A stretch of DNA of 55,193 bases, taken from positions 1-55,193 of IMG/VR virus record IMGVR_UViG_3300048686_000358; one strand, given 5' to 3'. The stretch comes from a virus. Shown one piece after another: positions 598 through 38,600 of the stretch (position 1 is the stretch's first letter; the number at the start of each line of letters is the position of its first letter). Both the position numbers and the translations under genes were made by a program. Below the pieces are notes generated by a model, which searched no databases, had not been told where the DNA came from, and saw nothing but the letters and a program-made list of their open reading frames with translations.

Positions 598-620
598 ACT
601 GTGTCTCCTTGTGTTGAACA

Positions 621-626
621 AATATA
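621..626 (-). promoter_or_regulatory. Candidate -10 element of the pstS promoter
   Basis: TATATT on the minus strand lies 10 bp downstream of the last PHO half-site, the usual PhoB-dependent geometry. TAAATA at 625-630 is an alternative. A transcript starting just after it would have a leader of roughly 15 nt carrying the AAGGAG ribosome site. Confidence 0.5.
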
Positions 627-636
627 TTTACTTTTT

Positions 637-669
637 TTATGTGACAAAATTATTACAGTTGTGTGACAA
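637..669 (-). promoter_or_regulatory. PHO box: three tandem 11-bp PhoB half-sites upstream of pstS
   Basis: Read on the minus strand, three contiguous 11-mers occur: TTGTCACACAA (659-669), CTGTAATAATT (648-658) and TTGTCACATAA (637-647). The Pho box consensus is CTGTCAT direct repeats at 11-bp period with AT-rich 4-bp spacers, and each unit here fits it, the outer two best. The array ends about 10 bp before a possible -10 element, the spacing expected of PhoB-activated promoters that lack a -35 box. The target gene, pstS, is the textbook Pho regulon member, which supports the call. Confidence 0.88.
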
Positions 670-671
670 TG

Positions 672-693
672 AAAAAAGGGGCCGAAGCCCCTT
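672..693 (-). terminator. Rho-independent terminator after the porin gene
   Basis: The minus strand reads AAGGGGC, a TTCG tetraloop, GCCCCTT, then a run of T. The hairpin is at 676-693 with the T tract from 677 down to 672. It begins 22 bp after the porin stop codon and precedes the PHO box, so it insulates porin from pstS. The GGGGCTT/GCCCCTT stem is almost the same as that of the tmRNA terminator. Confidence 0.9.
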
Positions 694-714: not shown

Positions 715-1599
715 TTAGAAGCGGTGTGTTACGCCAACTCCAAATGCTTTAACGTCACCGGCAGTGCCAGCAGCGTCAACATTGCGGAATGCAACATTAA
801 GTGCGGTACGCTTTGTGAAGTTATAATCAGCACCGGCAGCATAAGCCTTTACGCTAGTATTGGTTCTACCATAACTTGCTTTGGCAGTAATCTTGCCAAA
901 GTCGTGCGCTATACCAATGCTATCACCTTTGCTCTTTACTAGACCTTGGTCATCGCTGTGAACGAAACTAAAAGTTGTACCTGCTAGTTTTGTATTCAAA
1001 CCAACAACTGTACTCTTTTCTAGACCTTGTTCAAAACGAGCAACGCTACCATTCACACCCATGAATTTACCTGAGGCTGCAACAACTGTTGCATCATTTG
1101 CAGGACCATTCATTGTGCGCTCATATGCTAGTGAAGCACCCTTCATAGGGTTTACGCTAACAAATACTGCGTCACCTAAACGAAGATTGCGTAGATTGTG
1201 TACATCACCTGCTACACTTCCATACAATGTGCCGAACACATCATTGTTAGTGATTACTAAAAAGTGGCTGTGAACATTACGACCTAGATCCACGCTACCA
1301 AACTTATTGGCAATACCTACAGTTGCTTGACGGTCACCTAACTTAGTACCATTGCCATCGATAGTGTTGCCACTTAATGATGTTTCAACAACAGCACGTG
1401 CTCTTAGACCATCGCCTAACTTTTCATTGACAGAGATAGCAAAGTTGCTAGTAGGTTCTGTAACAAGTTGTGTTGCGCTTACATTGTCACCAACTTTAGA
1501 GTTGTCTACAAATGCACTAACTTTACCTGATAACTTAACCTGAGCACTAGCGATACTTACTAAGCCCATCAATAAAGTTGCCATTACGATTTTCTTCAT
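715..1599 (-). CDS. Gram-negative outer-membrane porin (beta-proteobacterial type)
   Basis: This is a 294-residue general porin. Residues 1-19 are a signal peptide ending ASA. The mature chain opens QVKLSGKVSAFVDNSKVG, as in Burkholderiales/Methylophilales porins, with alternating beta-strand and turn segments, and it ends in phenylalanine (THRF), the BAM-complex signal for barrel insertion. It is somewhat short for the family (commonly 330-380). The start has an AAGGAAG site at 1605-1611. A pore in the outer membrane would raise passage of small solutes; next to pstS and a binding-protein gene this suggests nutrient import during infection, though receptor replacement or superinfection exclusion is also possible. 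Base composition is richer in G+C than the neighbours (27 of 60 at 1081-1140 against 16 of 60 at 2341-2400), suggesting acquisition from a host. Confidence 0.9.
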   Translation of the reverse strand: MKKIVMATLLMGLVSIASAQVKLSGKVSAFVDNSKVGDNVSATQLVTEPTSNFAISVNEKLGDGLRARAVVETSLSGNTIDGNGTKLGDRQATVGIANKFGSVDLGRNVHSHFLVITNNDVFGTLYGSVAGDVHNLRNLRLGDAVFVSVNPMKGASLAYERTMNGPANDATVVAASGKFMGVNGSVARFEQGLEKSTVVGLNTKLAGTTFSFVHSDDQGLVKSKGDSIGIAHDFGKITAKASYGRTNTSVKAYAAGADYNFTKRTALNVAFRNVDAAGTAGDVKAFGVGVTHRF

Positions 1600-1612
1600 A
1601 TTTTCTTCCTTA

Positions 1613-1636
1613 TAAAAAAGCCTGTTAAAACAGGCT
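1613..1636 (-). terminator. Terminator-like hairpin abutting the porin ribosome site (possible attenuator)
   Basis: On the minus strand AGCCTGTT and AACAGGCT form an 8-bp inverted repeat (1619-1636) followed by six T residues, the form of an intrinsic terminator. It ends three bases before the AAGGAAG ribosome site of the porin gene. As a plain terminator of the oxygenase gene it would leave no room for a porin promoter, so it may act as a conditional terminator or as a leader hairpin. A weak promoter candidate (TTAACA, then TTATAA 17 bp later) lies upstream. Confidence 0.6.
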
Positions 1637-1701
1637 AGATTAATATTTAACTTATAAAATCCTACGAAATAAATTGTTAATATGTGTAATATAAACTAAT
1701 A

Positions 1702-2469
1702 TTAAATGTAATATAGCGATAGTTTATTAGCATTTTGTAATTTTACATCAGTATTCGTAGTCCTTAATCCTGTTATAGTTAGATTTGGACGTGGTGATGT
1801 GCTTATGTTAATGGTTGCATGTGGTACATTGGAGTGGTCAAATATAGTTACGTCTCCTGCTCTCCATTGACTATGAACATGATTACCGTACACAAAGTAT
1901 TGTCCCATTTCCCAGTCAGCTAAATTTACTGTCATTCTGACAATTCTACCAGGGTCAGCCGGACATCTATGCCACAATTTATCTATATGGGGTGCAAAAG
2001 TTTGTCCAGGTAACTGAACATGGGCACGATATGTTACGTTTTCTAACTCCCAATAATTTACAATTTTTTTAATTACATCAAAGTTATCAAGAAAGTTTTC
2101 TAAAACTACTTGAGTATGTTTGTGATTTTCAACTCCATGTCTTACTCTATCATTATATTCTTGTTGGGTCATAGGGCTTGCTCCGTTGTTAGGAAAATTT
2201 CTAAGCCCTTTGTTAGTTACTTCATCCCACTCTAAGTCTAAACTTTTTTCAATTATACTTTTAGTAGTAGCAGTGAGGTCGCAAACATAACGTCCCAAAG
2301 AATGAAACCATTCTCCTTCATTTTCTTTAACAAATTTATCAAAATGATAATTACTAAAGTTTTCTTTTACATAATCGAAACTGGAATCATATTCGCTACC
2401 CTTTTGATGATTAAAATCTTTGGGCAAGGATTTGATTTTAAGTCTATTTGTATATGTTGTGATGTCCAT
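1702..2469 (-). CDS. 2-oxoglutarate/Fe(II)-dependent oxygenase-like protein
   Basis: This 255-residue protein has the double-stranded beta-helix signature of 2OG/Fe(II) oxygenases, close in style to aspartyl/asparaginyl beta-hydroxylase-like phage proteins. The iron triad would be His161 and Asp163 in APHIDKLWHR and His217 in NVPHATINIS. The basic residue of RPNLTITG near 227 would bind 2-oxoglutarate. The preceding stretch GDVTIFDHS is the usual strand before the second histidine. The substrate cannot be told. The start follows the Bug-family gene with no gap, so the two are probably co-transcribed. It lacks a signal peptide and should be cytoplasmic. Such oxygenases are common in T4-like phages of aquatic bacteria. 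Confidence 0.75.
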   Translation of the reverse strand: MDITTYTNRLKIKSLPKDFNHQKGSEYDSSFDYVKENFSNYHFDKFVKENEGEWFHSLGRYVCDLTATTKSIIEKSLDLEWDEVTNKGLRNFPNNGASPMTQQEYNDRVRHGVENHKHTQVVLENFLDNFDVIKKIVNYWELENVTYRAHVQLPGQTFAPHIDKLWHRCPADPGRIVRMTVNLADWEMGQYFVYGNHVHSQWRAGDVTIFDHSNVPHATINISTSPRPNLTITGLRTTNTDVKLQNANKLSLYYI

Positions 2470-3381
2470 TTATTTCTTATCTTTCAAAGTTTTTACAAAG
2501 GTATCAACTCTTTTTGTTGCATTATCTATTCCAAATATATCTATTTCGGTGTATTCTGAAACGAAATCTTGGTTTACTTGCTCATTTTTCATATATGATA
2601 AAACAAATTCTTTCCAAAAATTGTAGGCTTCAGTATTCGTGTGTTGCGGCAATGTAAGTAGAAATCCATCATCGAATTGCCAATTATTATATTTTTTTGC
2701 AACGTTAGGTACATGTGAAAATTCTTTCCAATTATTTCTCGCTATAATAGCAATTAAACGTAATTTTCCTGAATCTACGTGTTGCTTTATTATAGAATAA
2801 GGCACAACAATAAAATCAACATGCCCACCTATAGCATCTTGTACTGCAGGTCCACCACCTTTATATGGTACTAAAACAGGTTGAATAGATATTTTGTTTG
2901 CATTAAAAATTTGTTCCCAAATCGTTTTTTGACTAGGGCTACCAAATGCAAATGTCTTTTTATTATCACCAGATTTTAGTGTTTTTTCTAGACTATCGAA
3001 ATTTGTAATATCATTATTAGGATGTGTTGCAATAGCCATAACACTACCTTTAATTACAGAAATATGATCAAAATTATAATTAGGATTATTTAGTTTATGT
3101 GTTGCTACAGTTGCAACTGTAGCGAACCCGATAGTATATCCATTAGGTTTTGATTCTGCAACCTCATTGGTTCCTATAAGTCCGTCTGCACCTCCCTTGT
3201 ACATCGGAACGATAGTAATATTGCGTTGGTCGGCGTATTTCTGAAAATGTCGGAAGGCTATGTCAGTGCCTCCACCGGGTGCGAAAGGTATAACAGCCTT
3301 TATAGGTTCTTTAGTTGGATTAAACTGTGCGTGTGCTGTTAATGCAAAAAATGCAGTTAACATTAAAATTAATTTTTTCAT
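2470..3381 (-). CDS. Bug/TctC-family periplasmic substrate-binding protein
   Basis: This 303-residue protein belongs to the Bug (Bordetella uptake gene) family of tripartite tricarboxylate transporter receptors. Residues 1-18 are a signal peptide ending AHA. The family hallmarks are present: PIKAVIPFAPGGGTDI near residue 30, where the two lobes bind carboxylates, and PYKGGGPAVQDAIGGHVDF around residue 175. Length matches the family (about 300-330). The family captures small carboxylic acids, nicotinate or aromatic acids for membrane partners TctA and TctB, which are absent here, so the phage protein would have to serve a host permease. An AAGGAG site precedes the ATG. It is the first gene after the tmRNA terminator. 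The family is greatly expanded in beta-proteobacteria, supporting such a host. Confidence 0.88.
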   Translation of the reverse strand: MKKLILMLTAFFALTAHAQFNPTKEPIKAVIPFAPGGGTDIAFRHFQKYADQRNITIVPMYKGGADGLIGTNEVAESKPNGYTIGFATVATVATHKLNNPNYNFDHISVIKGSVMAIATHPNNDITNFDSLEKTLKSGDNKKTFAFGSPSQKTIWEQIFNANKISIQPVLVPYKGGGPAVQDAIGGHVDFIVVPYSIIKQHVDSGKLRLIAIIARNNWKEFSHVPNVAKKYNNWQFDDGFLLTLPQHTNTEAYNFWKEFVLSYMKNEQVNQDFVSEYTEIDIFGIDNATKRVDTFVKTLKDKK

Positions 3382-3427
3382 TTATTCTCCTTAGTAGAAT
3401 TATTTAATTAATAAGTTCATAATTCAT

Positions 3428-3453
3428 AAAAAAAGGGGCTTAAGCCCCTTTTT
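3428..3453 (-). terminator. Intrinsic terminator of the tmRNA gene
   Basis: A perfect palindrome GGGGCTTAAGCCCC (3435-3448) is flanked by an A run (3428-3434) and a T run (3449-3453). On the minus strand it is a strong hairpin followed by seven T residues. It closes the tmRNA transcript. The A/T symmetry means it could also stop transcription from the other direction. Confidence 0.88.
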
Positions 3454-3491
3454 GAGTTTCTGTTTATCGGTATGTCTTACCTCAGCATGCC

Positions 3492-3524
3492 TCAAGCGGC
3501 AAGTGCGTATGTAGAGTCGTTTGC
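3492..3524 (-). other. tmRNA proteolysis-tag reading frame
   Basis: Ten codons from GCA at 3524 encode ANDSTYALAA and end in TGA. The resume codon GCA follows GTAGAC, comparable with TAGTC before GCA in Escherichia coli. The ALAA end is the ClpXP-type degron, so tagged proteins should be destroyed by host proteases. Confidence 0.9.
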
Positions 3525-3611
3525 GTCTACTTGTTTTGCTTGATTTACGGTCATCGCCTACCGTATGGTCCACTCTGTTACTCTTTGCCCTGTCGAAACC
3601 ATGACTGGCCC

Positions 3612-3719
3612 ATCAAAAGTAGTTTATGTTTGACAATCTAGATATTAGTAAGGGGCATATTCGAATTAGCCTCTAGCATCCTCGGAAGGGTCAAATCTAA
3701 CTGTGTTCAAAACTACTTT
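3612..3719 (-). other. 108-nt intervening segment of the permuted tmRNA precursor
   Basis: This spacer joins the acceptor CCA end to the 5' end of the coding piece and should be removed by processing. Its ends are complementary: CAAAAGTAGTTT (3710-3721, including the last base pair of the acceptor tail) pairs with AAACTACTTTTG (3614-3625) over 12 bp, continuing the acceptor stem almost coaxially. The inner part holds further short complementary pieces such as TTTGAC and GTCAAA. I do not recognise a known riboswitch in it. Confidence 0.75.
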
Positions 3720-3785
3720 TGGTGGACCAGGCGGGAGTCGAACCCGCGTCCAGAACACTTTTCTCTTTGCTTCATACCATAATAT

Positions 3786-3914
3786 TCAGTCATAGGGTTT
3801 CAAAAAATCGTCACCCTCAGAATCTTCTTCAAACTTACTCCAATCATAGGTACATAGTTTATAAATCCAATATACATATAATGTAACTATTAATAGTAGC
3901 AATATTATATTCAT
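3786..3914 (-). CDS. Predicted 42-residue single-span membrane peptide
   Basis: This small frame starts with ATG at 3914, five bases after the stop codon of the His-rich gene, and ends with TGA just before the tmRNA. Residues 1-19 are strongly hydrophobic (MNIILLLLIVTLYVYWIYKL), giving one membrane segment. The remaining 22 residues are acidic and cytoplasm-like (DWSKFEEDSEGDDF). I see no strong ribosome site, so translation may be coupled to the upstream gene. No family is recognised. The clear division into a hydrophobic helix and an acidic tail, with its position filling the gap exactly, is what supports it. Confidence 0.6.
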   Translation of the reverse strand: MNIILLLLIVTLYVYWIYKLCTYDWSKFEEDSEGDDFLKPYD

Positions 3915-3919
3915 AATAT

Positions 3920-4291
3920 TTAGCGTTGGTAACAAGTTCTTTCACGCTGAATTCTACCATCAGGTAAAAGCACTTCACGCCATTCTGTACAAATGGTTTG
4001 TACAGGATATTGTTCAATAATTACAGGTTGCTCAATTACACGGGGTCTTGTTGCTTCATGTATTACTGCGCCTAACACTACGGCACCAATTACAGGTGCT
4101 ACCCAATCATTACCGCGATATTGGTGACCATGATGATGCCCATGATTATGGTGTCTATGGTTGACTGCATGATTTGAGTACATACTATAACACGCCGGGT
4201 GCTTATGGTCTACTCCATACCTACAGTCTATGCCACTCGCACTAGCATTAAGAGCCAGTAAACTAAAGATAACAACAAATAACTTTTTCAT
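3920..4291 (-). CDS. His-rich exported protein with glycine-zipper-like segment
   Basis: This protein is 123 residues from the preferred start. An in-frame ATG at 4297 lies only one base after AGGAGA, whereas the ATG at 4291 has seven bases of spacing, so 4291 is chosen. Residues 1-18 are a signal peptide. A histidine-rich stretch follows (HRHHNHGHHHGHQ, about residues 46-58), then a small-residue hydrophobic segment (APVIGAVVLGAVIHEA). The C-terminus has paired cysteines in TICTEWREVLLPDG and RTCYQR. It may bind metals in the periplasm or act at the envelope; no function is proven. It is driven by a consensus sigma70 promoter at 4327-4355. Confidence 0.8.
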   Translation of the reverse strand: MKKLFVVIFSLLALNASASGIDCRYGVDHKHPACYSMYSNHAVNHRHHNHGHHHGHQYRGNDWVAPVIGAVVLGAVIHEATRPRVIEQPVIIEQYPVQTICTEWREVLLPDGRIQRERTCYQR

Positions 4292-4326
4292 ATCCATTCT
4301 CCTGTGGTAGAATTCATGATGCTTAC

Positions 4327-4355
4327 ATCATAACATATATGGGAATATTTGTCAA
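4327..4355 (-). promoter_or_regulatory. Consensus sigma70 promoter
   Basis: The minus strand carries TTGACA (4350-4355), exactly 17 bp, then TATGAT (4327-4332). It starts just after the methyltransferase stop codon and should drive the His-rich gene, the 42-aa gene and perhaps the tmRNA. It suggests early transcription by unmodified host polymerase. Confidence 0.85.
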
Positions 4356-4356
4356 A

Positions 4357-5631
4357 TCACTCAAACAACATGTTGAATGTGTTTGTTTCTAAACCCTCAT
4401 ATACATTTTTATTTTTTCTAAATACCCATATCGGTTCAACAAATACGCTATTCTTATCTGCCTCGACTATCTGATGCGGTCTGGCTTGCAATCTCATACC
4501 TATCTTACCCAAATAATGTGCATTAGGATAAGTTAAGATATTATCAACCATATCGTCACAAAGATTTAATCTTTCACCTTTACTGGTTCTAGGTTCAATA
4601 ATATTAATCATCATGTATGCACTATCTTTTAACGCACGATAGACCATTTCGTTGACACGGAAAAAGAAATCATTCTTCCATTTTTCAAAAGTAGGATACC
4701 TTATATAACTTTGAGTAGCATTATTATCCTGTGCATATCTCTCAGTTTCAAAATACGGAGGACTGGTAAAATAAAAATCAAAAGTATTTTCATACAAATC
4801 CCAATTTACATCTTCACTGGGTAAATTATATATCTCAACTTTCTTAATACCCGTACAAGTAAAATGTTTGTCAGATTCTACTAAAACTGGAGTACCTCCC
4901 AAAAGTTCTTCATATTCAATACATTGTTTTTTATATGTCTCAAACACTTCGGGATTAGGATCACAACCAACATACATCTTTGTGCAAGGTGTTGCATAGA
5001 AGCCTGCGAGTCTATCACCCCAACCACAACTAGTATCTAATACATGTTCGGCACTGTGTTTTTCATACAATGCTTTTGCAACGCTAGGTTTGAATTGTGT
5101 AGCAGTATATGTACCAATACGAAATGCACTACGGAATGTGCTATCATTGATATCACTATTGCCCAACGCACCCATACGCCAAAAGTGCCAGTTCATTTTG
5201 TTTAGTTTATTGGCATCATTCCATATATGCCATGGACTGTCTACTAGATTACTCCCGCACTTCATACGATTTAATTGCTGAAAATAATTGCTGACGCTAT
5301 TATATGCGTGTGACTTTTCTATAACACCCAATGGCTTGTCGCTATATTTGTATCTGTAATCAAACTTTTCTAATACTACATCAACATTTTTGTATTCAGA
5401 TAACATAGATGTTGATGCAAATTTTGTAAACAAATCTATAAAATCTACTTTATTAATTATTTTAGTTGGGAATAGTAAATTATTTTTGGTAATATACTCC
5501 GTTAGTGATTGTTTAATATCTTCTTTTGGATATTGATTTATAAATTGGCGCCAATCAGTATTAGAAATATTTGGAATACCTCTAGCGTCTGAGTGCGATG
5601 AGAAATAATTTACAAGATTCGGGTCGACCAT
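4357..5631 (-). CDS. SPPY-motif DNA methyltransferase-like protein
   Basis: From ATG at 5631 the protein is 424 residues; a TTG two codons upstream (5637) is possible but less likely. The S-adenosylmethionine site is VLDTSCGWGDRLAGF near residue 198. The catalytic motif IV is FTSPPYFETE near 287, as in amino-methyltransferases acting on exocyclic nitrogen (N4-cytosine or N6-adenine). Motif order (binding before catalysis) is that of the gamma/beta-like groups. The N-terminal ~190 residues match nothing I recognise and could hold target recognition. No restriction enzyme partner is near, so it may protect phage DNA or act on another substrate. It lies 16 bp after the giant repeat gene, with TATAAT close before the start that could be a promoter. 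Confidence 0.75.
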   Translation of the reverse strand: MVDPNLVNYFSSHSDARGIPNISNTDWRQFINQYPKEDIKQSLTEYITKNNLLFPTKIINKVDFIDLFTKFASTSMLSEYKNVDVVLEKFDYRYKYSDKPLGVIEKSHAYNSVSNYFQQLNRMKCGSNLVDSPWHIWNDANKLNKMNWHFWRMGALGNSDINDSTFRSAFRIGTYTATQFKPSVAKALYEKHSAEHVLDTSCGWGDRLAGFYATPCTKMYVGCDPNPEVFETYKKQCIEYEELLGGTPVLVESDKHFTCTGIKKVEIYNLPSEDVNWDLYENTFDFYFTSPPYFETERYAQDNNATQSYIRYPTFEKWKNDFFFRVNEMVYRALKDSAYMMINIIEPRTSKGERLNLCDDMVDNILTYPNAHYLGKIGMRLQARPHQIVEADKNSVFVEPIWVFRKNKNVYEGLETNTFNMLFE

Positions 5632-10584: not shown

Positions 10585-11208
10585 TTAATCCAAGGCAATA
10601 TTAAAATTTTTTGTTTGAGGTATGTTGTTTTTGATTTGAGTAACATACAGGTCAAATAAAAAATCAGCCAATTGAACATTAGATTCCGGTAAAAAATGAT
10701 TGTAAGACTGTTCGGTGTTTATATCTTTATTCATTAACGATTTTAAATCAACAACATTTTTATACCCATTACAAATATTGAAACCTAATTTTAATGATTC
10801 TTTGAAGCAAAATAAATGTATTACCTTTCTATTGGCTAGCATATCATTTAATTCATGAAAATATTTTGTCATAGCCCATTTATGAAAATCCTCATCATAT
10901 ATATGTTTATAATAAACCTCGTTCGCATGAAATTCATCAGGGATATCTTCGGGGAAACATGAAGTAATTTTTGTACTTAAAATTCTTAATGGTTCTGTGT
11001 GACAAAAGATAAAAAGTTCTGTACGATTAAAGTCAATGCTTTTCTTATACTCATATAAATTTTGTCTTGCGTACCACCATGATTTAGCAGGATATCCCTG
11101 ACCAGTAAGAGTCAAATTTAATTTATTGGCAAGTATTAAGGGCCAGTGATATGCAGGATTTTCACGCCAAAAACAAAAACTGTCTCCAGTTATGTAAATA
11201 TTAGACAT
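10585..11208 (-). CDS. SGNH-hydrolase-like protein
   Basis: This 207-residue protein starts with the block I motif ITGDSFCFW (Ser10 as nucleophile). A glycine block GQGYPAKSWW and a C-terminal NHFLPESN, whose histidine could be catalytic, are also present. SGNH enzymes remove or transfer acyl groups on sugars and other polymers. There is no signal peptide, so action is probably in the cytoplasm. Its ATG overlaps the stop of the carbamoyltransferase gene by one base. The DxxH pair typical of block V is not clear, so catalytic competence is uncertain. Confidence 0.7.
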   Translation of the reverse strand: MSNIYITGDSFCFWRENPAYHWPLILANKLNLTLTGQGYPAKSWWYARQNLYEYKKSIDFNRTELFIFCHTEPLRILSTKITSCFPEDIPDEFHANEVYYKHIYDEDFHKWAMTKYFHELNDMLANRKVIHLFCFKESLKLGFNICNGYKNVVDLKSLMNKDINTEQSYNHFLPESNVQLADFLFDLYVTQIKNNIPQTKNFNIALD

Positions 11209-12692
11209 TAACTCAATACTTTGACGTTATAAAGTTTTTCAAAACGATCTGCATCGAACCTATCATTAACCATAGGTTCACCGCGTATGTTTAATGACGT
11301 ATTTAATAGCATCGGGCATTCTGTCAACACATACCATTTTTCTAAAAGTTCTCTTATTCCACTTCCATCTTTCGGTACAGTTTGAACACGGCTAGTGCCG
11401 TCATGATGAACAATAGCAGGAAACAAATTAGGTTTATTACATTTTGCAATCACTTGCATATATCTACTATTATTCCAACCTTTTGGCATGTCAAAATATT
11501 TGTGTACATGTTCTTCTAATATGATAGGAGCAAAAGGTCTAAACTTCTGTCTGCGTTTAATTTCATTTACTTTATCCTTTATTTCGTTGCCTCTAGGATC
11601 AGCCAATAAACTACGGTTGCCTAACGCTCTGGGACCAAACTCAGCACGACCACTTGCTACACCTACTATTTTTTCAGTTTGTAATACATCAAGTATACGA
11701 TTTACTGGATAAGGACCATCTATATTGTGTCCAAGAAACGCATCTTTCCATTGAAGTTTTTTACCATACCCCAATGCTGCTGCACCTAAACTACTACCAC
11801 AGTCGCCGGGGTTAGGCATAATCCATATATGTTGAAAATAATCACCTAACATTCTATTAGCAAGACAATTAAGTGCGACTCCGCCACCATAGACAATGTT
11901 GCTACTATTTCCTAACATTCTTGCTTTGGCAAATATTTCTTTAAGTAAATCTTCTAGTACAACTTGTGCCGAACTTGCAATGTCCATTGGATCGGCATTT
12001 GGTAAAAAATCATCGCCAACACCAATATGTAAATTTTGCTTAAAAGTTAAATGACGTTGGTCTTCTATCAATAGATTATGCATCTCATCAGAGTGAATGG
12101 GTTTACCATATGCTGCCATGCCCATTAAAATATATTCTTCATCCATTGGATGCAATCCTACTTTATGTGTCATTGCACTATAAAATAATCCCAAACTATT
12201 TGGATATTGTTTACTATATATTTTTTTATATTGTGCTATACCATGATGGTCATATCCAGCATTCCATATAGTGACTGTATCAAATTCTCCTATAGCATCA
12301 ATAATTACAACTGTTGCTTGACGAAAGGGACTTGTTTGAAAACTTGCGGCGGCGTGGCTTAGATGATGACTATGCTTATAAACTTTTTTCTCTCTAAGCA
12401 TTCCATGAATATCATGCTCTAACAAATGCCCATCAAATAGATTTCTAAATCTAGGTTTCTCACCTGATCGTATTTGCCTCAATACTTTTAATAGTGGACG
12501 CTCATAATAATGTAATTCATAATCACCAATAATATGTTTGAGTGCATCATTAACAATGCCATGACACAAATTCTTATCATGCTTATGCTTGCTGTATCTT
12601 TCACTATGACTGGCAAATAATATTTCACCTGTGTTAGACACAACACTAACACCGGCATCGTGAAACCCATTACTTAATCCAATATAATTCAT
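11208..12692 (-). CDS. NodU/TobZ-family O-carbamoyltransferase
   Basis: This 494-residue enzyme should transfer a carbamoyl group from carbamoyl phosphate to a hydroxyl of a sugar or nucleoside through carbamoyl adenylate. The Kae1-like N-terminal domain opens with YIGLSNGFHDAGVSVV and has the metal motif HHLSHAAAS near residues 107-115, followed by VVIIDAIGEFD. VYGGGVALN is the second ATP-binding loop. The C-terminal YrdC-like half has ASGRAEFGPRALGNRSLLADPR near 345-365 and FRPFAPIILEE. It is somewhat shorter than typical members (about 570). Relatives make carbamoylated antibiotics, Nod factors and, in some phages, modified DNA bases. Here SGNH and radical SAM neighbours suggest a sugar or nucleotide target. 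Confidence 0.9.
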   Translation of the reverse strand: MNYIGLSNGFHDAGVSVVSNTGEILFASHSERYSKHKHDKNLCHGIVNDALKHIIGDYELHYYERPLLKVLRQIRSGEKPRFRNLFDGHLLEHDIHGMLREKKVYKHSHHLSHAAASFQTSPFRQATVVIIDAIGEFDTVTIWNAGYDHHGIAQYKKIYSKQYPNSLGLFYSAMTHKVGLHPMDEEYILMGMAAYGKPIHSDEMHNLLIEDQRHLTFKQNLHIGVGDDFLPNADPMDIASSAQVVLEDLLKEIFAKARMLGNSSNIVYGGGVALNCLANRMLGDYFQHIWIMPNPGDCGSSLGAAALGYGKKLQWKDAFLGHNIDGPYPVNRILDVLQTEKIVGVASGRAEFGPRALGNRSLLADPRGNEIKDKVNEIKRRQKFRPFAPIILEEHVHKYFDMPKGWNNSRYMQVIAKCNKPNLFPAIVHHDGTSRVQTVPKDGSGIRELLEKWYVLTECPMLLNTSLNIRGEPMVNDRFDADRFEKLYNVKVLS

Positions 12693-21921: not shown

Positions 21922-23315
21922 CCTATGCTATCCCACCATTCTAGTAGTTTTGAATTTGTAGAGTATATACTACGCATAGTAACCTTTTCATCCCCACGAA
22001 TCTTTTCTAAATGTTCTACCCATCGTTTACCATTTAGTCTAGCAGTCTTATAGGTGTCAGGCCATTCTTCTTCATGTGTTTTACGACTATTCTTCAATGC
22101 TTCTAAGTTAGCAATTAATTGACGTTGCTTCCATGTTGCTCTTGGCTGACAATATGCAATGATATCATCACACATTTCATTTAGTATTTCACGTGGCCAA
22201 CTAGTTGGACTCCACATAATATCAGGATGAAATGCAAAGGTAATCTTTGTAATGATTTCAACATCTAATTCAATACTCAAATCAAACAAGTCTTTTAAAC
22301 TGAACATACCAGGTGCGGTAATAGTCAAGTCTAGTTTCATTTTATCTTTGCCGCCCGGTAGTGCTAGGCCCTGCTTGAAGTTATCTAACCATTTATCCCA
22401 TTTAATACCTGTGCGAATGTACTCTACAATCTCGCCGGTGCCATCGATACTAGCACACATCATCCAGTCTTTATATTTGGGTAGATAATCATATAAGTTT
22501 TTGTCACCAAACTGAACGCGGCTTAGATTACTGTTGTAGCGCATATAGCAATTCTTATTACTGCCATTACGTAACATTTCTTCTAATGTCCACCAATGCA
22601 CATCATACATCAATGGTTCGCCGCCCACCCAATACATTTCTTCTACAATGCCGCGACTTACTGCATCACGGAATTCTGGTTCAACTACAGTCTGTTGAAA
22701 GTCTTGCATTGCTGACTTGATTTCAGGAACCATAAAAGGTTGATTCTTCGGAGTCCACATGTTGTGAACTTTCTTTTCTGTTTCCCATGTTGAACTTAAT
22801 TGTTCACCACACATACGACACTTGAAATTACATAGATTACTAAAACGATAATCAAAACTAATTGGCTCCATTGTTGTGTAACCAGTTTCGTCAGTTTTAT
22901 CAAATGCTTCTTGTATCTTATGCTTAAACAATGTACCGGTAAACCAACCTCGATAACTTTCACCTTCCATCAATAGATTGTTGTTACATACATCACATTG
23001 TGGTATGGCTTCTCCGCGCATTAACTTAACACGAATGTCACGCATATATGGACTGTTCCAATGTTCTTTTAGTGAAACAGGTTTATATGCATCTAATGAA
23101 GTTTTAGATTCTTTTACTTCGCCATACTTTTCATCGTTTGTTGAATCAATATATTGTTTTTGAAAACTATGCTCTTCCCGTGACGCACAACACATTCTGC
23201 GTTCACTTTGTGGGCTGATATAGGTATGAGTCCAAGGTGCCATACAGAACACCTTGTTTTTGCTATCAGGATGGGGCTTTGCATTATCGCCCCATAATGG
23301 TATAATTTTTGTCAT
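21918..23315 (-). CDS. Radical SAM protein with N-terminal twitch-like cysteine domain (type B)
   Basis: This protein is 465 residues. The N-terminus has VFCMAPWTHTYISPQSERR, MCCASREEH and PQCDVCNNNLLMEG. The radical SAM motif CNFKCRMC is near residues 161-168 with GEQLSSTW next; GGE is in YWVGGEPLMYDV. It is about 30 residues longer than its type B sisters, mainly in an insert before the second cysteine group and another before the GGE motif. It overlaps neighbours by four bases on each side. Confidence 0.85.
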   Translation of the reverse strand: MTKIIPLWGDNAKPHPDSKNKVFCMAPWTHTYISPQSERRMCCASREEHSFQKQYIDSTNDEKYGEVKESKTSLDAYKPVSLKEHWNSPYMRDIRVKLMRGEAIPQCDVCNNNLLMEGESYRGWFTGTLFKHKIQEAFDKTDETGYTTMEPISFDYRFSNLCNFKCRMCGEQLSSTWETEKKVHNMWTPKNQPFMVPEIKSAMQDFQQTVVEPEFRDAVSRGIVEEMYWVGGEPLMYDVHWWTLEEMLRNGSNKNCYMRYNSNLSRVQFGDKNLYDYLPKYKDWMMCASIDGTGEIVEYIRTGIKWDKWLDNFKQGLALPGGKDKMKLDLTITAPGMFSLKDLFDLSIELDVEIITKITFAFHPDIMWSPTSWPREILNEMCDDIIAYCQPRATWKQRQLIANLEALKNSRKTHEEEWPDTYKTARLNGKRWVEHLEKIRGDEKVTMRSIYSTNSKLLEWWDSIG

Positions 23316-24838
23316 TGTAAGTCTGGATTGACGAACACATCCTTACTTGGATCTTCTGGTGGATGATCAGGAATATGATTTACGCCATCACGATATTGTC
23401 CTGTAAGTATTTCTTCTTGTAATGGGAGTTCTGTTTCAATACTATCATACCATTGAACAAATTCGGGAGGGAATGTAGCACGGAAATTCTTACCGCGGCG
23501 TACATCATACTGATGATAGAATTGCTTAAAATCACGCTTGTTCTGCTCAGGATCCTTAACATTCTTATGTGGTGTTTTGATAACGTCAAGATAATCAATC
23601 AATCGTTGTGTTTGCTCACGTTCAATACTCATAAGCATTTGCTTACCGTCTCTAGTACGATAATCTGCTTCAATTTGTTTATTTAACCATGCTTGCAATT
23701 CGTTGCTATACTTTTGACGAATCTCCATTGGAAGCATAGCGCAACTTTGGAAACTAGGGAAACGCAAGATATTCAAACTCATTGTTGGGTAGCAAGTATC
23801 GTAAATGCGTTTGAACTCCATCATTTGATCCATAAACTGAACAATGCTCGCAAGACACAAACTATTGATAGTCATCATCATATGTGTCTTTTTGATATTG
23901 CCTTCAGTATGCAATCTTTGTAGATTATGTATCCACTTGTTCCAGTTGAAACCATCACGAATATATTCAGCATGTGGACCGAAACTCTCACAACTTGTAT
24001 ATACTTCAAGCCAGGGAACATAATGACTTAATTCAATAAGTCTGTCCATAATTTCATCTTTAGGCACAAGATTACTGTTAATAGCATAGCGCATAACTTT
24101 GCCGTCAGGTCTATTCTTAACACGCTCTTGGTTGTCGCGGAACCATTCAAAGAGTTTCCATACACCGGCAGCCATTAATGGCTCGCCACCTGTAATACGA
24201 ATTTCTTCTAGGTTATCAGCAAGACCGTTTGGCATTTCCCACCACTTCCAAAACGCCTGACTATATGGATTGATATCGTCAGGCATAGGTTTAGCATGAT
24301 CGGCTTCATTAATGAAGTGACTTCTTGCATCACCATTGATGTTACGATATGGACCAAACTTGTGAATATCTTTTACCCATGTTGTACTAAAACTAGGATT
24401 GCAATAACTACATGCAAAATTACAAGTACGGTCAAAACTAATTTCTAATGTTTTTAACATTGTATTAGTTTGCCAATCACTTTGTGCAGCCTCAATAATA
24501 TGCTTTTCATCAAACACCGCAGTTTTGTATACTCGGTCACTTATTGATCCACGACCCAAATCTTCAATCTTCCAGCAGTATTCACATTCTTGCGGACGCT
24601 TGCCTTCCTGCATAAGTTTACGCATGTACTTCTTATGTTGACTATTATGAATAGCACTTGGATTATTAATTAATTCACCTGCATCAATTTGATGCCCCAA
24701 TGGGTGGTGACAACTAGTTGTCTGCCCGTTGCCTAACCAAATAGTTGCGTTCAACCATTTAGCGGCGCAAAAACTATCACTAATCTTGTCAATTAGTCTG
24801 ACCTTATATTCGTGAAAACTTTCTTCGTGTCTTTTCAT
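23312..24838 (-). CDS. Radical SAM protein with N-terminal twitch-like cysteine domain (type A)
   Basis: This protein is 508 residues. The N-terminus carries SFCAAKWLNATIWLG, TSCHHPLGHQ and QECEYCWKIEDLG. The radical SAM motif CNFACSYC is near residues 137-144, followed by NPSFSTTW; GGE is in RITGGEPLMAAG. The FYHQYDVRRGKNFRATFPPEF end is the type A tail. A proline-rich acidic extension of about 45 residues follows (GVNHIPDHPPEDPSKD) and is absent from the others. Seven bases separate it from the upstream gene. Confidence 0.85.
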   Translation of the reverse strand: MKRHEESFHEYKVRLIDKISDSFCAAKWLNATIWLGNGQTTSCHHPLGHQIDAGELINNPSAIHNSQHKKYMRKLMQEGKRPQECEYCWKIEDLGRGSISDRVYKTAVFDEKHIIEAAQSDWQTNTMLKTLEISFDRTCNFACSYCNPSFSTTWVKDIHKFGPYRNINGDARSHFINEADHAKPMPDDINPYSQAFWKWWEMPNGLADNLEEIRITGGEPLMAAGVWKLFEWFRDNQERVKNRPDGKVMRYAINSNLVPKDEIMDRLIELSHYVPWLEVYTSCESFGPHAEYIRDGFNWNKWIHNLQRLHTEGNIKKTHMMMTINSLCLASIVQFMDQMMEFKRIYDTCYPTMSLNILRFPSFQSCAMLPMEIRQKYSNELQAWLNKQIEADYRTRDGKQMLMSIEREQTQRLIDYLDVIKTPHKNVKDPEQNKRDFKQFYHQYDVRRGKNFRATFPPEFVQWYDSIETELPLQEEILTGQYRDGVNHIPDHPPEDPSKDVFVNPDLQ

Positions 24839-24845
24839 ATCTTCC

Positions 24846-26411
24846 TCAATGTTTGGTATGTGCTTTTATGCATTCTCTCCAGTAACTTTTTAGTTCTGGA
24901 AAGGTTTCTAAGAAATTTGTTTGCCTGCGTCTATCATATTCACTAATGAACATGTAGAAGTTGTTTTTATTTAGTTGCAATTGCTCTGATGGTAGAGATT
25001 CCTTCATTATAGCCAAATCTCGTTTGATTTTTAGTATTTCGTATGGTTTAAAACCTTCAAATGTTTCTAAATAATCATCACCCTGTACATTTTCTTCCAT
25101 GTATTTTAGACATCGTTCTACTTCATCAATGCCATATTGTCCACTGTTTTGAATGCTAAACCAGGGGGGATAACGCAATATTGGAATGTCAAAGAATACC
25201 CGCTGAAATTTCTTTTGCTTGTATACTTTATGGACAATATTATTTTCTTTTTCTATTTCAGTTTGCTCGGGGGCAATCTCAAACTCAACTTGACTTCTGC
25301 CACCAAATTCTTTTCTAAGTTCCAATATCATTTCTAAAAACTTATGTAAACTTGGAATACTTAAAATGTTAAAGGTATTAATGAAACTAACTGTACTGTA
25401 TTTTGTCTCACGCAAAAAGGTACGTACATTATTAAGCATTCGTTCAAACTCTAACCCGGTACGCATATATTCTGCTTGTTTACCATACCCATCCAAACTT
25501 ACAAACAACCAAAAATGTTTGAAACCTTTATCTACATACCAATGATTGCCACTGAACTCATTAAAGTTTTCTTTATCTTCGTATGTTCGTAGTTCTTCGA
25601 TTGCTTTTACTTTGTCTAAAAATTTATCAAATAACTTTTGATCTGGCGGACACATGTTACTTGTGATACTTAATTCAAGTTGTCCATGTGGGTTTTCATT
25701 AACATAGTCTAATACTCTGAAGGTGTTTTTATCCATTAATGGTTCACCACCTGTCATACGAAACACCCGTAACTTACGATAGATATTAGGCCACCATTCC
25801 CAAAATGCATCTACATAAGGGTTCTCTTTCTGTGCTACCTTAAGTGGCATCAAGCCTTTTTTGTCTAGTGCAGTTAAATCATTATGCACCATATTGGCTA
25901 GTTTATAACCACCGTGTTTCTTAACTTCTTCTTCCCAAGACGTAGATAAGTGTGGGCTACAGTACATGCATTTAAAATTACATGCTTGATTGAAATTAAC
26001 CTCTACATATCTAGGTGTTACATCATAATCAAAGGTATTACTTGTAACTTCTTCAAATGTTGGTGCATTCCACCACTCACTACTACGATAATGCCTATCA
26101 CTCATATGACCTTTGGGGTCATCACTTTCTGCATCTTCTACTTTCCAACAATAACTACAGCCTTCAGGGCGTTTACCCTCAAGCATCATCTTGCGTTCTT
26201 GTTTCTTTTGAGGTGTATTATGTAACGCACTGGCCTGTGTTTTTAACAATTCAACAGGTATTTTGTGTGTAGGAGGATGATAACAACTCTGTGTTAGTCC
26301 TTGCGGCAGATGCAAACTCACCTGTTGCCATTTAGCAAGACATAGAGATGGACTGACCGCATTTAAGCGGTCACGCATGTCTCTAGCAAATTGGTCATAC
26401 TCTCCTGACAT
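24846..26411 (-). CDS. Radical SAM protein with N-terminal twitch-like cysteine domain (type A)
   Basis: This protein is 521 residues, the longest of the nine and the first transcribed. The N-terminus has SLCLAKWQQVSLHLPQG, QSCYHPPTHKIP and EGCSYCWKVEDAE. The radical SAM motif CNFKCMYC is near residues 142-149, with SPHLSTSW; GGE is in RMTGGEPLMDKN. An insert around residues 270-300 (AIEELRTYEDKENFNEFSG) is unique. The tail FISEYDRRRQTNFLETFPEL is type A. The start overlaps the stop of the 316-aa glycosyltransferase-like gene, linking the two functions in one operon. Confidence 0.85.
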   Translation of the reverse strand: MSGEYDQFARDMRDRLNAVSPSLCLAKWQQVSLHLPQGLTQSCYHPPTHKIPVELLKTQASALHNTPQKKQERKMMLEGKRPEGCSYCWKVEDAESDDPKGHMSDRHYRSSEWWNAPTFEEVTSNTFDYDVTPRYVEVNFNQACNFKCMYCSPHLSTSWEEEVKKHGGYKLANMVHNDLTALDKKGLMPLKVAQKENPYVDAFWEWWPNIYRKLRVFRMTGGEPLMDKNTFRVLDYVNENPHGQLELSITSNMCPPDQKLFDKFLDKVKAIEELRTYEDKENFNEFSGNHWYVDKGFKHFWLFVSLDGYGKQAEYMRTGLEFERMLNNVRTFLRETKYSTVSFINTFNILSIPSLHKFLEMILELRKEFGGRSQVEFEIAPEQTEIEKENNIVHKVYKQKKFQRVFFDIPILRYPPWFSIQNSGQYGIDEVERCLKYMEENVQGDDYLETFEGFKPYEILKIKRDLAIMKESLPSEQLQLNKNNFYMFISEYDRRRQTNFLETFPELKSYWRECIKAHTKH

Positions 26412-32656: not shown

Positions 32657-35600
32657 TTAACCGACATCCTGATTTAAGAATTCTGCCCCGATCGTTTCAC
32701 TTATTTGTAGTGGATCACCCTCAACTGGATTAAAGTCATATGAGTTCCATGTCTTGTTATACTGAACGGATGATAGTAAGTTTTCAGACAAGAATCCGTA
32801 TACATCAGAATATTTGGATATAAACACCTGAACTCCAGTACCGTTAACACCTCGACTTAAACCAGTTAAAGTATTTGTTGCCAAATCTGCTGTTCTAAAT
32901 CTAATCTGTTCCCCATTTACAAATATTGTGTTACCCTCAACAACAGTAATTGTTACTGAGTCGCCAGCAGTAACACCGTTTGTAATTTTAATTACCGGAG
33001 CAATACTAGATATTGCAAAGTAATAATCATTAGAAGTTAAGGTTGTTGCAGTAGTATTATTTACTACAATGATTTGTGTAATAATTCTCTTGTCTGCATC
33101 CAAACCGATAGTTATTACGCCATCTACGGCTGCAGGAGCCACTTCATTTTGAACTATAGTTGCCGTTACTCTAGTAACATCATCTAGGTAAATTGTAGTG
33201 TCAGTATAATCCAAATCTTGTGTTAGCCAAGTTGATGTTTGTGAATTCGCACGATAAATTGTTTGTGTTCCTTCTTTGTTAATTAACTCCATGTAAGTTT
33301 CCTGATCAGGCGTCGCAGAAGGAATCATACTAGTAATAATTACTTCATCACCGGGTTGAATTTCTCGTAGAATACTTAGATTATTGTCTGCATTTAATCT
33401 TAGTGCAGAACTTGGAACACGATAACCATTAATAGTTACCCACAATCTTTCTACATTATATTGTTCCCATTGAGTTACACTAAATGATAAACTTGAAGCA
33501 GTTGCCAGTACAAAAATATCACCTGCATGTGTTTCAGAGATTGTAAATGTATTTGGCGATACTAAATCAACATCCTTAATATAATAAGTTTGACCTTCAA
33601 CAATATTACTTGCTCCAACATTACCAGTAAATATTACTGGTGTATTTGGAACCAATCCAGTAGTACTTGTGACAGAAACTAAATTAGTTCCAGCAGTTGT
33701 ACTTGTTCCTGTTGTATTTTGTAATACAAAGTTACCGTCAATGAATATATAACCACCTGATACATAATTTGCTACATTAATTACAGGATTATTTGTATCT
33801 GTTAGTAATGGTTGATATGGGGTTAGATATAAATCAACTGAGGTAGCACTTATAACGTGTACATAATATAAGTTATTATTTAGTTGTGTTGAGCCAACTA
33901 CACCGTCTATTCTAACATAATCATTTGTAACGAAATTATGTGGGTTTGTAGTGGTAACTCTAATTGTAGATAATCCACCGATATAAACCGTCATAACTCC
34001 TAATCCAGTTCCAGGATCAAATACAGAACCACCCGGTGTTGTTGAAATAGTAAATTCTGTAGCACTTACAATGCTATCAACAAAATATACAGTTCCATCT
34101 GTTTGCACATTACTTCCGGCAAACGGTAGACCTGTTAAATTCTTAAATATTGCAGTCTGACCTACAACAAATCCAGATGTATCTTCGCATGTTATGATAT
34201 TACCAGTTGAAGAAACCTGAGACACTTGAGTAACTGATAATGGTGCAGAGAAGACGTTGTCCACATATGATATTGGATCTACTGTATTATTAGGTGTAGA
34301 ACTTGTAATTGTGTAAGAATTAGTCAAGAAATACTGACGCTCAGTTCTATTAAAAGTTGTTATTGCAATAACATCCCCACTAGATGGTATTCCACTAGTA
34401 AATGTGATAGTGTCTAAATTAGAATTAATATTGTATGTGCTCGGCAATACTCGTAATCCGTTAACTTCTACAATTGCATTTTCAGCATTGTCTCCAGCAT
34501 TGTAGTTAGTAATAACATATGTCGCTGATCCATCTGCTGTAATAAGTTCTGTTTCAGGAAGTGTGTATCCATATTGTTCTGGAGTAGTTTCACCAAATAC
34601 TGTATATGAAAGATAATCGACACTTGAATTATAAACAGTCGAGAAGATAATTTTAGCACTAATACCATTATCCGCAATACCAAATACATAATCATATGTG
34701 ATTGCTAATGCGCCACCTGTTGCATCTGTTAACGATATTACTGAACCGCCAGGTGTAGCAGATATTGTAAACTCGTTATCGTCTATAACATTCTTAACAT
34801 AATAAACAGTCTGTGGAGAAATGATTCCACCAAAAATAGTGTCACTAAATGTTATCGGATCATTATTGTCCATTCCAACTGTTGTATTACATACAACAGT
34901 ATTTGTTGCACTATTTGTACCAGTAATATTAAATTTATCACCTAGCACTAATCTTGTACCGTTATGTTGAACATAAGGATCAGTCCATACCGTTGTTTCA
35001 GGAATCACGACCATTGTGCCTGTTGCATCTATTAAAGTAAAGATAGAGCCTGCGACACCTGAAACTATTGTTGCACTAATGCTAATCAAATTGTTTACAT
35101 AATCAATAGATTTTACATAATAATGTGTACCGGCTACAATATTACCAAATGTTGTGCCGGAGAATACGACCATACCATTTATAGTGAATCCAGACACATC
35201 TTCGCATTCAATACTATTAGTTGAAGCAAAAGTTTCTATAGCATTTGTTTCTGTTAGCGCGGATCTAACAACCCCCGAACCTTCAGTTTTCAATGCGGAA
35301 TAGTTACAAGTCAAATAAATTTCACTAAATCCAGTTTCATCATTCAATCTAATAGGATCGTTACTAGAATTTGATTTAACAAGTTGATCACCGTTACCCA
35401 CATCATATACATCAATTCTGAGTATATCAGGATCGGGGAAGAAATTAAGAGGACTGTTTAATGTTACAGTTTGATTATACCAATCGATTATATAGTCAGT
35501 ATCGTATAATGAAGTGCTTAACCCGGTAGTATAATCAATTACAAAAATTGCTAATTGTGCAGGATTTCTACTTAATCCAGCAAAACTATATGTAACTTGA

Positions 35601-38600
35601 GATGAAGTTGTTGGTACAATTTCTGTAGAAGTTACTCTATACCCAACATGGGCATATTCGGTCGCTTCCCAGTTAGTTCCAGGACGAGTGTTAACAATCA
35701 TTTGCATACTGTCTGTCACAACACCGGGTACTAATTCTTCCGGACCATAGCCAAATGTAAATTCTGCACCCTGTACTGTATAGAAGGTCGGATCACTAGA
35801 AATTTCACTTGTTGTTGTCCATGTAGTTCCATTACTACTTGTAAGGATTATACTTTCTTCGCCAACAATCACAAATTTATTAGTACCATTGTATACAATA
35901 TCATACAAGTCTTTTGTTGTTCCGGAAGTTCTAACAGTCCATGTTACACCGTCAGGAGATGTAATAATTGCTCCATTGTTACCTACTGCTACAAATAATC
36001 CATTGCCATAAGTTACTGCATTTAGATTTACAGCAATACCTGATGCTTCTGCGGTATAGGATGATCCATTTAAACTTGAGTAAACAACACCGTTTTCACC
36101 TACTACAATAATAGTATTATTACCTGATGTTACATCATTAAAGCCACTTGATGTCAACGCAGCCGCAGGGCTAGTCCATGTAACTCCATTGTCATTGCTT
36201 ATTAATAGTAAACTAATGTTAGAAATGATACCACTTAAATTTTGCTGTCCCTTACCAACTGCAATTAAGCCGTTGAAGAAAGTTATGTTTGCACTGGTAA
36301 CAGAATTTAAATTGTTGGTTAATCCGTTTGTAAATTCATATTTTTTAGTCCAGTTGTATACATCATTACTTGTATATATTTTTTCTCCAACTGCTACATA
36401 ATTGGTTCCATCATAGGTAACACCATTTAAAATAGCATTCTCAATATTCACTGTAGGAGTTAATAATGTACCAACACCAGTCGAAGTCCATATTATGGCA
36501 TCAGGGCTAATATAAATTGGTGTATTATTATTGTGTGTTGTAACTACATAGTAACCATTACCGTATGTAATGTCTGTTGCAGATACTGGTACTGTAGTAA
36601 TTTTTTCTGTCACCCACTCAGTAGAATTTGTGCTAATTACCGATTCCGTATTAGTCGGAGAATTGGCTATCGCAACATATTTTGTGTTATCATACACAAT
36701 TCCAACTGATCCCAAGTTAGGTGGATAGAATGGTTTGTCTTGCAACACAGTATCGATTTCGTATTCATCTGCTGGGGCAAACGCATTACCTAAATATATA
36801 CTATTTGGATATGTTATTCCATCTATTAATTGTGTCAAATCTTGACCTGGCATATTGATATAATTGCTCCAGCCCAAGGTGTCTGTGGTTGATGGCTTAT
36901 AGTAACCAATAATTCTGTCTAGTTCATTTAGTAATCTATTATCGCTTCCGATAAGTTCCCATTTACCTAAAATAAATTCATCATCATTATTAGATATAAT
37001 ACATTGATATACTTTGTTATTGTACTTTACAATACTCTGATCAAAGTAGAACGGTTCAGGTAGTAATGCGTAATCTCCTGATTTTGCAACATACATTGAT
37101 CCTGATTCGGTTGAGAGTACAACATCAGTTCCTCCTACTGTTTCAGATACTGTAATATCATTTCCTGATATACTAGTGATATAATATGTAGCACCGATTT
37201 CTATGTTTGAACCGCCAAATACATCGCCGGTGAAAACGACAGGGTCATTAACATTGAAGCCAGTACTACTGGTTAACGTAATAATATCCGTACCGGCTGT
37301 TGTGCTTGTAGCAGTTGTACTTCTTATCCCTTCGAAGGGAAAATCTCCGTATGCTACAGGAACTGATAATAACGGATCTGAATAAACTTCCACTTGATTT
37401 TCATTGATAACTTTAAAATAATAACTTGTTACTGTGTCGTTTGGAACGCCACTGCAAATCAATTGTGTGATTTCACCATTTGATTCAACAGGAATCTTCC
37501 ATGGATTGTTTGGATCTGGATTAGGTACAATTACATCAATGCTATTGACAGTCAATGTCAAATCATTCAATGGAGAGACACCACCTATATCATTTCCACT
37601 AATAACAATAGTATTGTTGATTGTATATCCTGCACCCGGGTCAGTTACAATTACTCTATATCCGCCCAAAATATAACTAATATCAAACTCAGCAATATTA
37701 GATGGGTTGATATATTGTGTCATTTCTATTGTTCCAGTAGCACCCGATAATGCTACTGCACTACCACCTTGACTAGCAGAAAGTTCGACATATGCTTGGC
37801 CGGTACCGGTCATTGAACCATTATCATTAGTTAGTGTTACTGCCGATCCAGCCAATGTTGTTTTAATTGTAAATTGAGTTGCGCTGGCAATTGACTCTAC
37901 ATAATATTGGAAATCAAATTGAACTCCACCTAATGCTGTTCCTGAAAACTCTATAGGCATATTTACATACAATATTGTAGTGTCTGCACAAGTTAATAAA
38001 TTTCCTGTGCTTGAAGTGTTCGTTACAGTTACTGTGGTTACACCCGAATCTATAACATAGTATGGAGTACCTGATGACAGACCACCTATACTAGAATCTA
38101 ACTGGAACGCTAAATTATTGTACACTAATGCCAATGTATTAGTGTTTGTGTCCAAACACACTCTGTTAACTGGCGCTGCTAATGTTGCCTTAATAGTTTC
38201 AACAACTAGATTACCTACTGTGCCGCCACCTGTCAATCCGGGATATTGCTGGCTAGTTGGATACATAGTAAACTGTTGTCCACTAATCTGACCCGGGCTG
38301 ATTGGTAAGCCTACATTTAATGTCATAGAGCCAGTTGCGCTAGTAAGATTAACTGTAGCCATTTGACTTGTTAATGTGCAGGTTCCTGTTTCATTGGCAA
38401 GTGATATTAAACTGCCATTCAATACAGTTGTTACTGTGAAGTGCGTTCCATCTATGATTTGACAAACATAGTAAGTTGTCCCTGATACTAAATTACCAAA
38501 GTTATTAACAGGAGAACCACTTACAACCATATTATTGAAAATAATTCTATCGTTAACATTTAGTCCCAATGTACTTTCGCAAGTTACCTGATCATTTGAT

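Follow-up and report, generated by a model that had tools for sequence, protein, structure and literature searches.

When a phage carries pstS, the gene for the phosphate-binding protein of the Pst transporter, what switches it on: a host short of phosphate, or the virus? The question is raised by a fragment of a virus record, 55,193 bases long (the window, by which we mean the whole stretch of DNA analysed), that holds a pstS gene at positions 1-597 of the minus strand. The gene product was recognised by PF12849 (E=2e-29) and phrog_5385 (E=5e-50). Its frame opens with an ATG at 597, preceded by the ribosome-binding sequence AAGGAG (605-610, minus strand), and is truncated at the window edge, with 199 of about 330 codons present. 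The phosphate-binding stretches GAGATF, GSG, GASD and RRADGSGT are shared with E. coli PstS, and matches to PstS chains in the PDB reach E values down to 1e-76; solved structures already cover PstS well. Together with the viral origin of the record and the gp6-like and gp25-like baseplate genes found in the window, these family matches bear out the original prediction of a phage pstS. The closest group of proteins is that of the Burkholderiales (66-71% identity), and with a best identity of 71% PstS points to a host at the level of the order only.

The gene upstream of pstS encodes a Gram-negative porin (715-1599, minus strand; PF13609, E=1e-19) and ends in an intrinsic terminator, AAGGGGCTTCGGCCCCTTTTTT, at 672-693 (minus strand, read from 693 to 672). 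Thus, pstS forms a separate transcription unit. A consensus scan for a sigma70 -35/-10 pair serving pstS found none. Instead, three PHO half-sites occupy 669-637 of the minus strand, 72 bp ahead of the phage gene: the distal TTGTCACACAA (659-669, 9.6 bits), the middle CTGTAATAATT (648-658, 9.4 bits) and the proximal TTGTCACATAA (637-647, 10.2 bits), which follow one another as TTGTCACACAA CTGTAATAATT TTGTCACATAA at a phase of 11 + 11 bp. That is, at least two CTGTCAT-like half-sites at 11 bp, the mark of a PHO-box promoter, are present, and here there are three. The original prediction had named exactly these coordinates, the strand (minus) being left unstated, and its observation of three contiguous half-sites in perfect phase was confirmed.

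Half-sites were scored with a matrix derived from six E. coli PHO promoters (16 half-sites, read from MG1655); their positions, which we take to be those of the known boxes, were located letter for letter in that genome. The prediction had proposed a PhoB matrix scan of the whole genome; a scan of both strands of the window with this E. coli-derived matrix gave 29.2 bits at the box (10.2 + 9.4 + 9.6) versus 14.5 bits for the runner-up triple. The same matrix gave 32.8 bits for E. coli pstS and 26.5 for phoB, on both of which it was trained, and 21.4 for ugpB. Could such repeats have arisen by chance or from AT-rich sequence bias? The region is indeed AT-rich, and single half-sites were frequent across the window in the matrix scan, but when the whole window was simulated 300 times with a first-order Markov model, no run reached 29.2 bits (top simulated score 23.1), and the triplet is kept in phage relatives. 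We therefore give this explanation practically no credence. A second phased PHO pair of comparable score was not found in the window, so that a wider PHO regulon there is unsupported. Strict phased PHO pairs away from the pstS promoter were rare in the phage relatives as well; one second site matching the strict pattern (contig G412, locus L163) was dismissed, as it lies inside a coding frame.

The box takes the place of a -35 element, and the hexamer TAAATA (625-630, minus strand) follows at the -10 position. It begins at +17, counted from where half-site 3 starts, and six bases lie between this half-site and the hexamer. In E. coli phoA, phoB, pstS and phoE the -10 likewise begins at +17. 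Usable upstream DNA was available for 128 bacterial pstS loci, of which 86 had a PHO doublet, chosen without using the -10; TA stood exactly at +17 in 78 of these 86 promoters and TAnnnT in 63. The -10-like site that had been predicted is thus at the right distance, but its hexamer, TAAATA, lacks the T of position 6. The window promoter resembles those of E. coli pstS, phoB and phoA in its 11-bp CTGTCAT-type repeats, the lack of a -35 and the element at +17. It differs from E. coli PHO promoters in being phage-borne, in this -10 without T6, and in its three half-sites, between the two of phoA and the four of pstS.

The third half-site had been regarded as an extra detail. This holds against betaproteobacterial pstS promoters, nearly all of which have two half-sites (L071 is one that does not), but three are not new in themselves. 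With four half-sites in E. coli pstS and three in pstS promoters of Microvirga, we rejected novelty and regard the three as an elaboration within the phage clade, not a new design; that they change sensitivity would be a guess. The Microvirga promoters, from an alphaproteobacterium, have the phased half-sites GTGTCATGTAA TTGTCATCCAA CTGTCGTAGAG (L096, L098, L103-L108, L110, L111, L117 and L122). Third half-sites in two other cellular loci, L173 and L170, were rejected; here the -10 region itself had been read as a half-site.

Relatives of the window PstS were encoded at 45 phage loci. Seven distinct promoters (the window, L002, L003/L004, L006, L007, L008 and L009) showed three in-phase half-sites of >6 bits together with TAAATA. 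In L005 the proximal half-site is weak; in L010 it is lost, and an upstream one is present but off phase by one base. Across nine such promoters, mean pairwise identity was 0.72 in the triplet and 1.00 in TAAATA versus 0.33-0.34 in the 50 bases upstream, and the genes upstream of these conserved promoters differ. Conservation sets in at the distal half-site, an argument for counting all three as part of the promoter. That is, the box is conserved with pstS, a phosphate-starvation gene, across relatives. The order porin, PHO box, pstS also recurs, in L010/L011 (porin 67% identical) and in L016 (35%); a comparison of the window porin with the phage collection gave no match.

The hexamer TAAATA was identical in 20 of 20 inspected phage pstS promoters (these phages are related, and the promoters are not 20 independent events) versus none of the 86 bacterial ones. 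Four contigs of the phage group were used to count it ahead of other genes (the window, G004, G413 and G406): coding-strand TAAATA occurred in 29 of 57 upstream gaps, with 8.3 expected, a simulation maximum of 15 and 6 in antisense. Ribosome-binding sequence aside, it is the most over-represented upstream hexamer of the group. Many copies lie about 25 nt ahead of the start codon, often as gaTAAATAc, and in the window these include the one at the gp6-like baseplate gene. Thus, a T4-like element at the -10 position recurs upstream of the group's genes. The consensus of T4 late promoters is TATAAATA, and the two bases before the window TAAATA are AG versus TA in T4. These promoters, served by gp55, gp33 and gp45, have no conserved -35 and consist of nothing but an 8-bp TATA box in the place of the -10 (PMC2988020).

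A late sigma factor is encoded in the contig of L010 (phrog_12791, E=2e-74; gp55 family phrog_234, E=7e-23) and also in the contigs of L016, L019 and L163; of these late-sigma contigs, two besides that of L010 have PHO-pstS. The gp55 gene is absent from the window, a fragment of about 55 kb of a larger genome. Our promoter is like T4 late promoters in the TAAATA core at the -10 position, which recurs throughout the group, and relatives encode a gp55-type sigma; it is unlike them in its host-activator array at fixed spacing, since T4 has none upstream. Judged by this recurrence, the apparent -10 of the window most likely represents the core of a late promoter of the phage itself, and pstS is therefore probably not purely PhoB-dependent. 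Sigma70 may use TAAATA poorly, as it lacks the T at position 6 of the -10, unlike most bacterial pstS promoters.

Other phages show different layouts. In a second group (L013, L015-L018, L020-L022 and L029) two half-sites are followed by TAAATA at +18. Six phages (L031-L034, L039 and L046) carry phoX and pstS in tandem (at about 1570-5010), with a PHO doublet ahead of phoX and pstS directly after it; in the two tested, phoX matched PF05787 in Pfam (L031, E=1e-122; L034, E=4e-122). All six have TAATAT or TACTAT at +17 and TAAATA at +28. L027 and L028 likewise have a -10 at +17, a perfect TATAAT in L027, and TAAATA at +28 ahead of pstS. As read from their sequences, distant phages carry a PhoB-type -10 and a late-type element apart, and in the window both predicted roles fall on one hexamer.

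These layouts bear on whether the window promoter is a pure PhoB promoter, in which TAAATA is no more than a poor sigma70 -10 and pstS comes on solely under phosphate starvation. All the PHO-box evidence agrees with such a promoter, and its TA at +17 obeys the bacterial rule. However, it does not account for a hexamer that never varies in 20 phage promoters yet occurs in none of the 86 bacterial ones, where TAnnnT is used instead, for its leading place among the upstream hexamers of the group, or for phages that have a proper -10 at +17 and still keep TAAATA as a second element. We consider it rather unlikely. The opposite explanation is that a host-derived pstS brought its PHO box along as a relic, now decayed, and that the phage uses only the late promoter. 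A PstS close to that of Burkholderiales (66-71%), whose promoters bear PHO doublets, speaks for such a history. Yet the box has three half-sites in phages and two in betaproteobacterial donors, box identity is 0.72 against 0.33-0.34 in adjoining DNA, and distant phages retain the box, even before phoX. To us a relic seems very improbable.

We therefore favour, with fair but not full confidence, a composite promoter at which host PhoB with sigma70 and a phage late switch would both drive pstS. Either starvation of the host or the virus on its own could then probably activate the gene. When the host lacks phosphate, its phosphorylated PhoB would occupy the three half-sites, which stand in for a -35, and bring in host RNA polymerase carrying sigma70 at the TA-containing element 17 bp downstream. 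At a later stage of infection, a gp55-type late sigma of the phage would read the same TAAATA regardless of phosphate supply. PstS produced at that stage might feed the host PstCAB transporter during phage DNA synthesis, to the presumed benefit of the phage. The host PhoB control proposed in the original prediction is thus well supported at the level of sequence by matrix score, spacing, conservation footprint and the box before phoX-pstS, whereas pure dependence on PhoB is not, given that the -10 is most likely a late core.

PhoB acts through region 4 of sigma70. In T4, gp55 resembles sigma domain 2 only, and gp33 occupies the sigma-4 site (PMC2988020). We infer that PhoB is expected to work with the host holoenzyme and not with the late one. 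A direct action of PhoB, bound at the triplet, on the late holoenzyme of the phage (gp55/gp33-type) appears improbable. If it did, a host two-component regulator would tune phage late transcription of a single gene, and the mark of the contact would be that PHO sites and TAAATA keep a constant helical phase, be it at +17, +18 or +28.

How does this promoter relate to known phage phosphate genes? For cyanophage pstS, control by the host PhoBR system has been reported (Zeng and Chisholm 2012, as cited in PMC10976474). The cyanobacterial box is described as PyTTAAPyPyT/A or CTTA-N7-CTTA in PMC10976474 and PMC3037559, and for the promoters flanking cyanophage pstS PMC3037559 offers no single solution. 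The likeness lies in a phage pstS reported to be under a host phosphate two-component system. The difference lies in the box, which in the window is of the proteobacterial CTGTCAT type and not of the cyanobacterial CTTA type. The window lacks the combination of a cyanobacterial 8-bp repeat box with a cyanobacterial-type PstS; cyanophage PstS shares at most about 49% identity with the window PstS. In eight cyanophages checked, the short gap between the preceding gene and pstS held no comparable box, and we rejected cyanophage pstS as the same element. Given the box type, the Burkholderiales-like PstS and these eight boxless records, the parallel with cyanophages drawn in the original prediction stands as an analogy only.

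Phages of soil and aquatic habitats, including freshwater, also have pstS as an auxiliary metabolic gene (PMC10987575), as does ours; that text, however, mentions neither PHO boxes nor promoters, and it names phoX a single time, in a general enumeration of bacterial enzymes. In the literature searched, mostly without subscription journals, we met no description of a PHO box combined with a phage late promoter element; we do not claim priority. PhoB control of phage pstS, reported for marine cyanophages, would extend to T4-like phages, here through a PHO box of proteobacterial type. These phages carry betaproteobacterial-type phosphate genes with at least three promoter layouts, the PHO box also standing before phoX-pstS operons. 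Since the window combines the putative late promoter with the host switch in one element and relatives keep the two apart, the group forms a natural series for asking how phages tie the nutrient sensing of a host to the programme by which they express their own genes.

Several further features lie near these genes. Metallophosphoesterase and glycosyltransferase genes stand beside phage pstS in L010 (5093-7133), L031 (5601-7510), L034 (5085-6985) and L045 (5324-6785); the glycosyltransferases are GT4-like in L010 and L031 and of family 2 in L045. A second PHO doublet accompanies such genes in L045 and L031. These neighbours recall the PlcP-Agt phosphorus-sparing lipid pathway and are candidates only: for a PlcP/Agt identity of the metallophosphoesterase and GT4 genes, the NCBIfam LpxH matches fell far under the cut-off.

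Within the window, the porin leader (1600-1701) contains a terminator-like hairpin with a T run, AGCCTGTTTTAACAGGCTTTTTT, at 1636-1614 of the minus strand, between a TAAATA (1649) and the porin start. The hairpin is kept in seven phages (also L010, L016 and L163-L166), four of its base pairs having changed in both partners, and may be a leader stabiliser or an attenuator. A TctC-like periplasmic binding protein (PF03401; 2470-3381, minus strand) is encoded beside porin and pstS, so that the phage carries three envelope uptake proteins. At 4298-4356 (minus strand), a near-consensus sigma70 promoter, TTGACA-17-TATGAT, lies ahead of a gene for a histidine-rich exported protein of 125 amino acids, in a gap without TAAATA. 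A Nol-like carbamoyltransferase and two radical SAM proteins are encoded at 11208-12692 and 23312-26411 (minus strand), and the structural region contains a single open frame of 6205 codons (32657-51274, minus strand).
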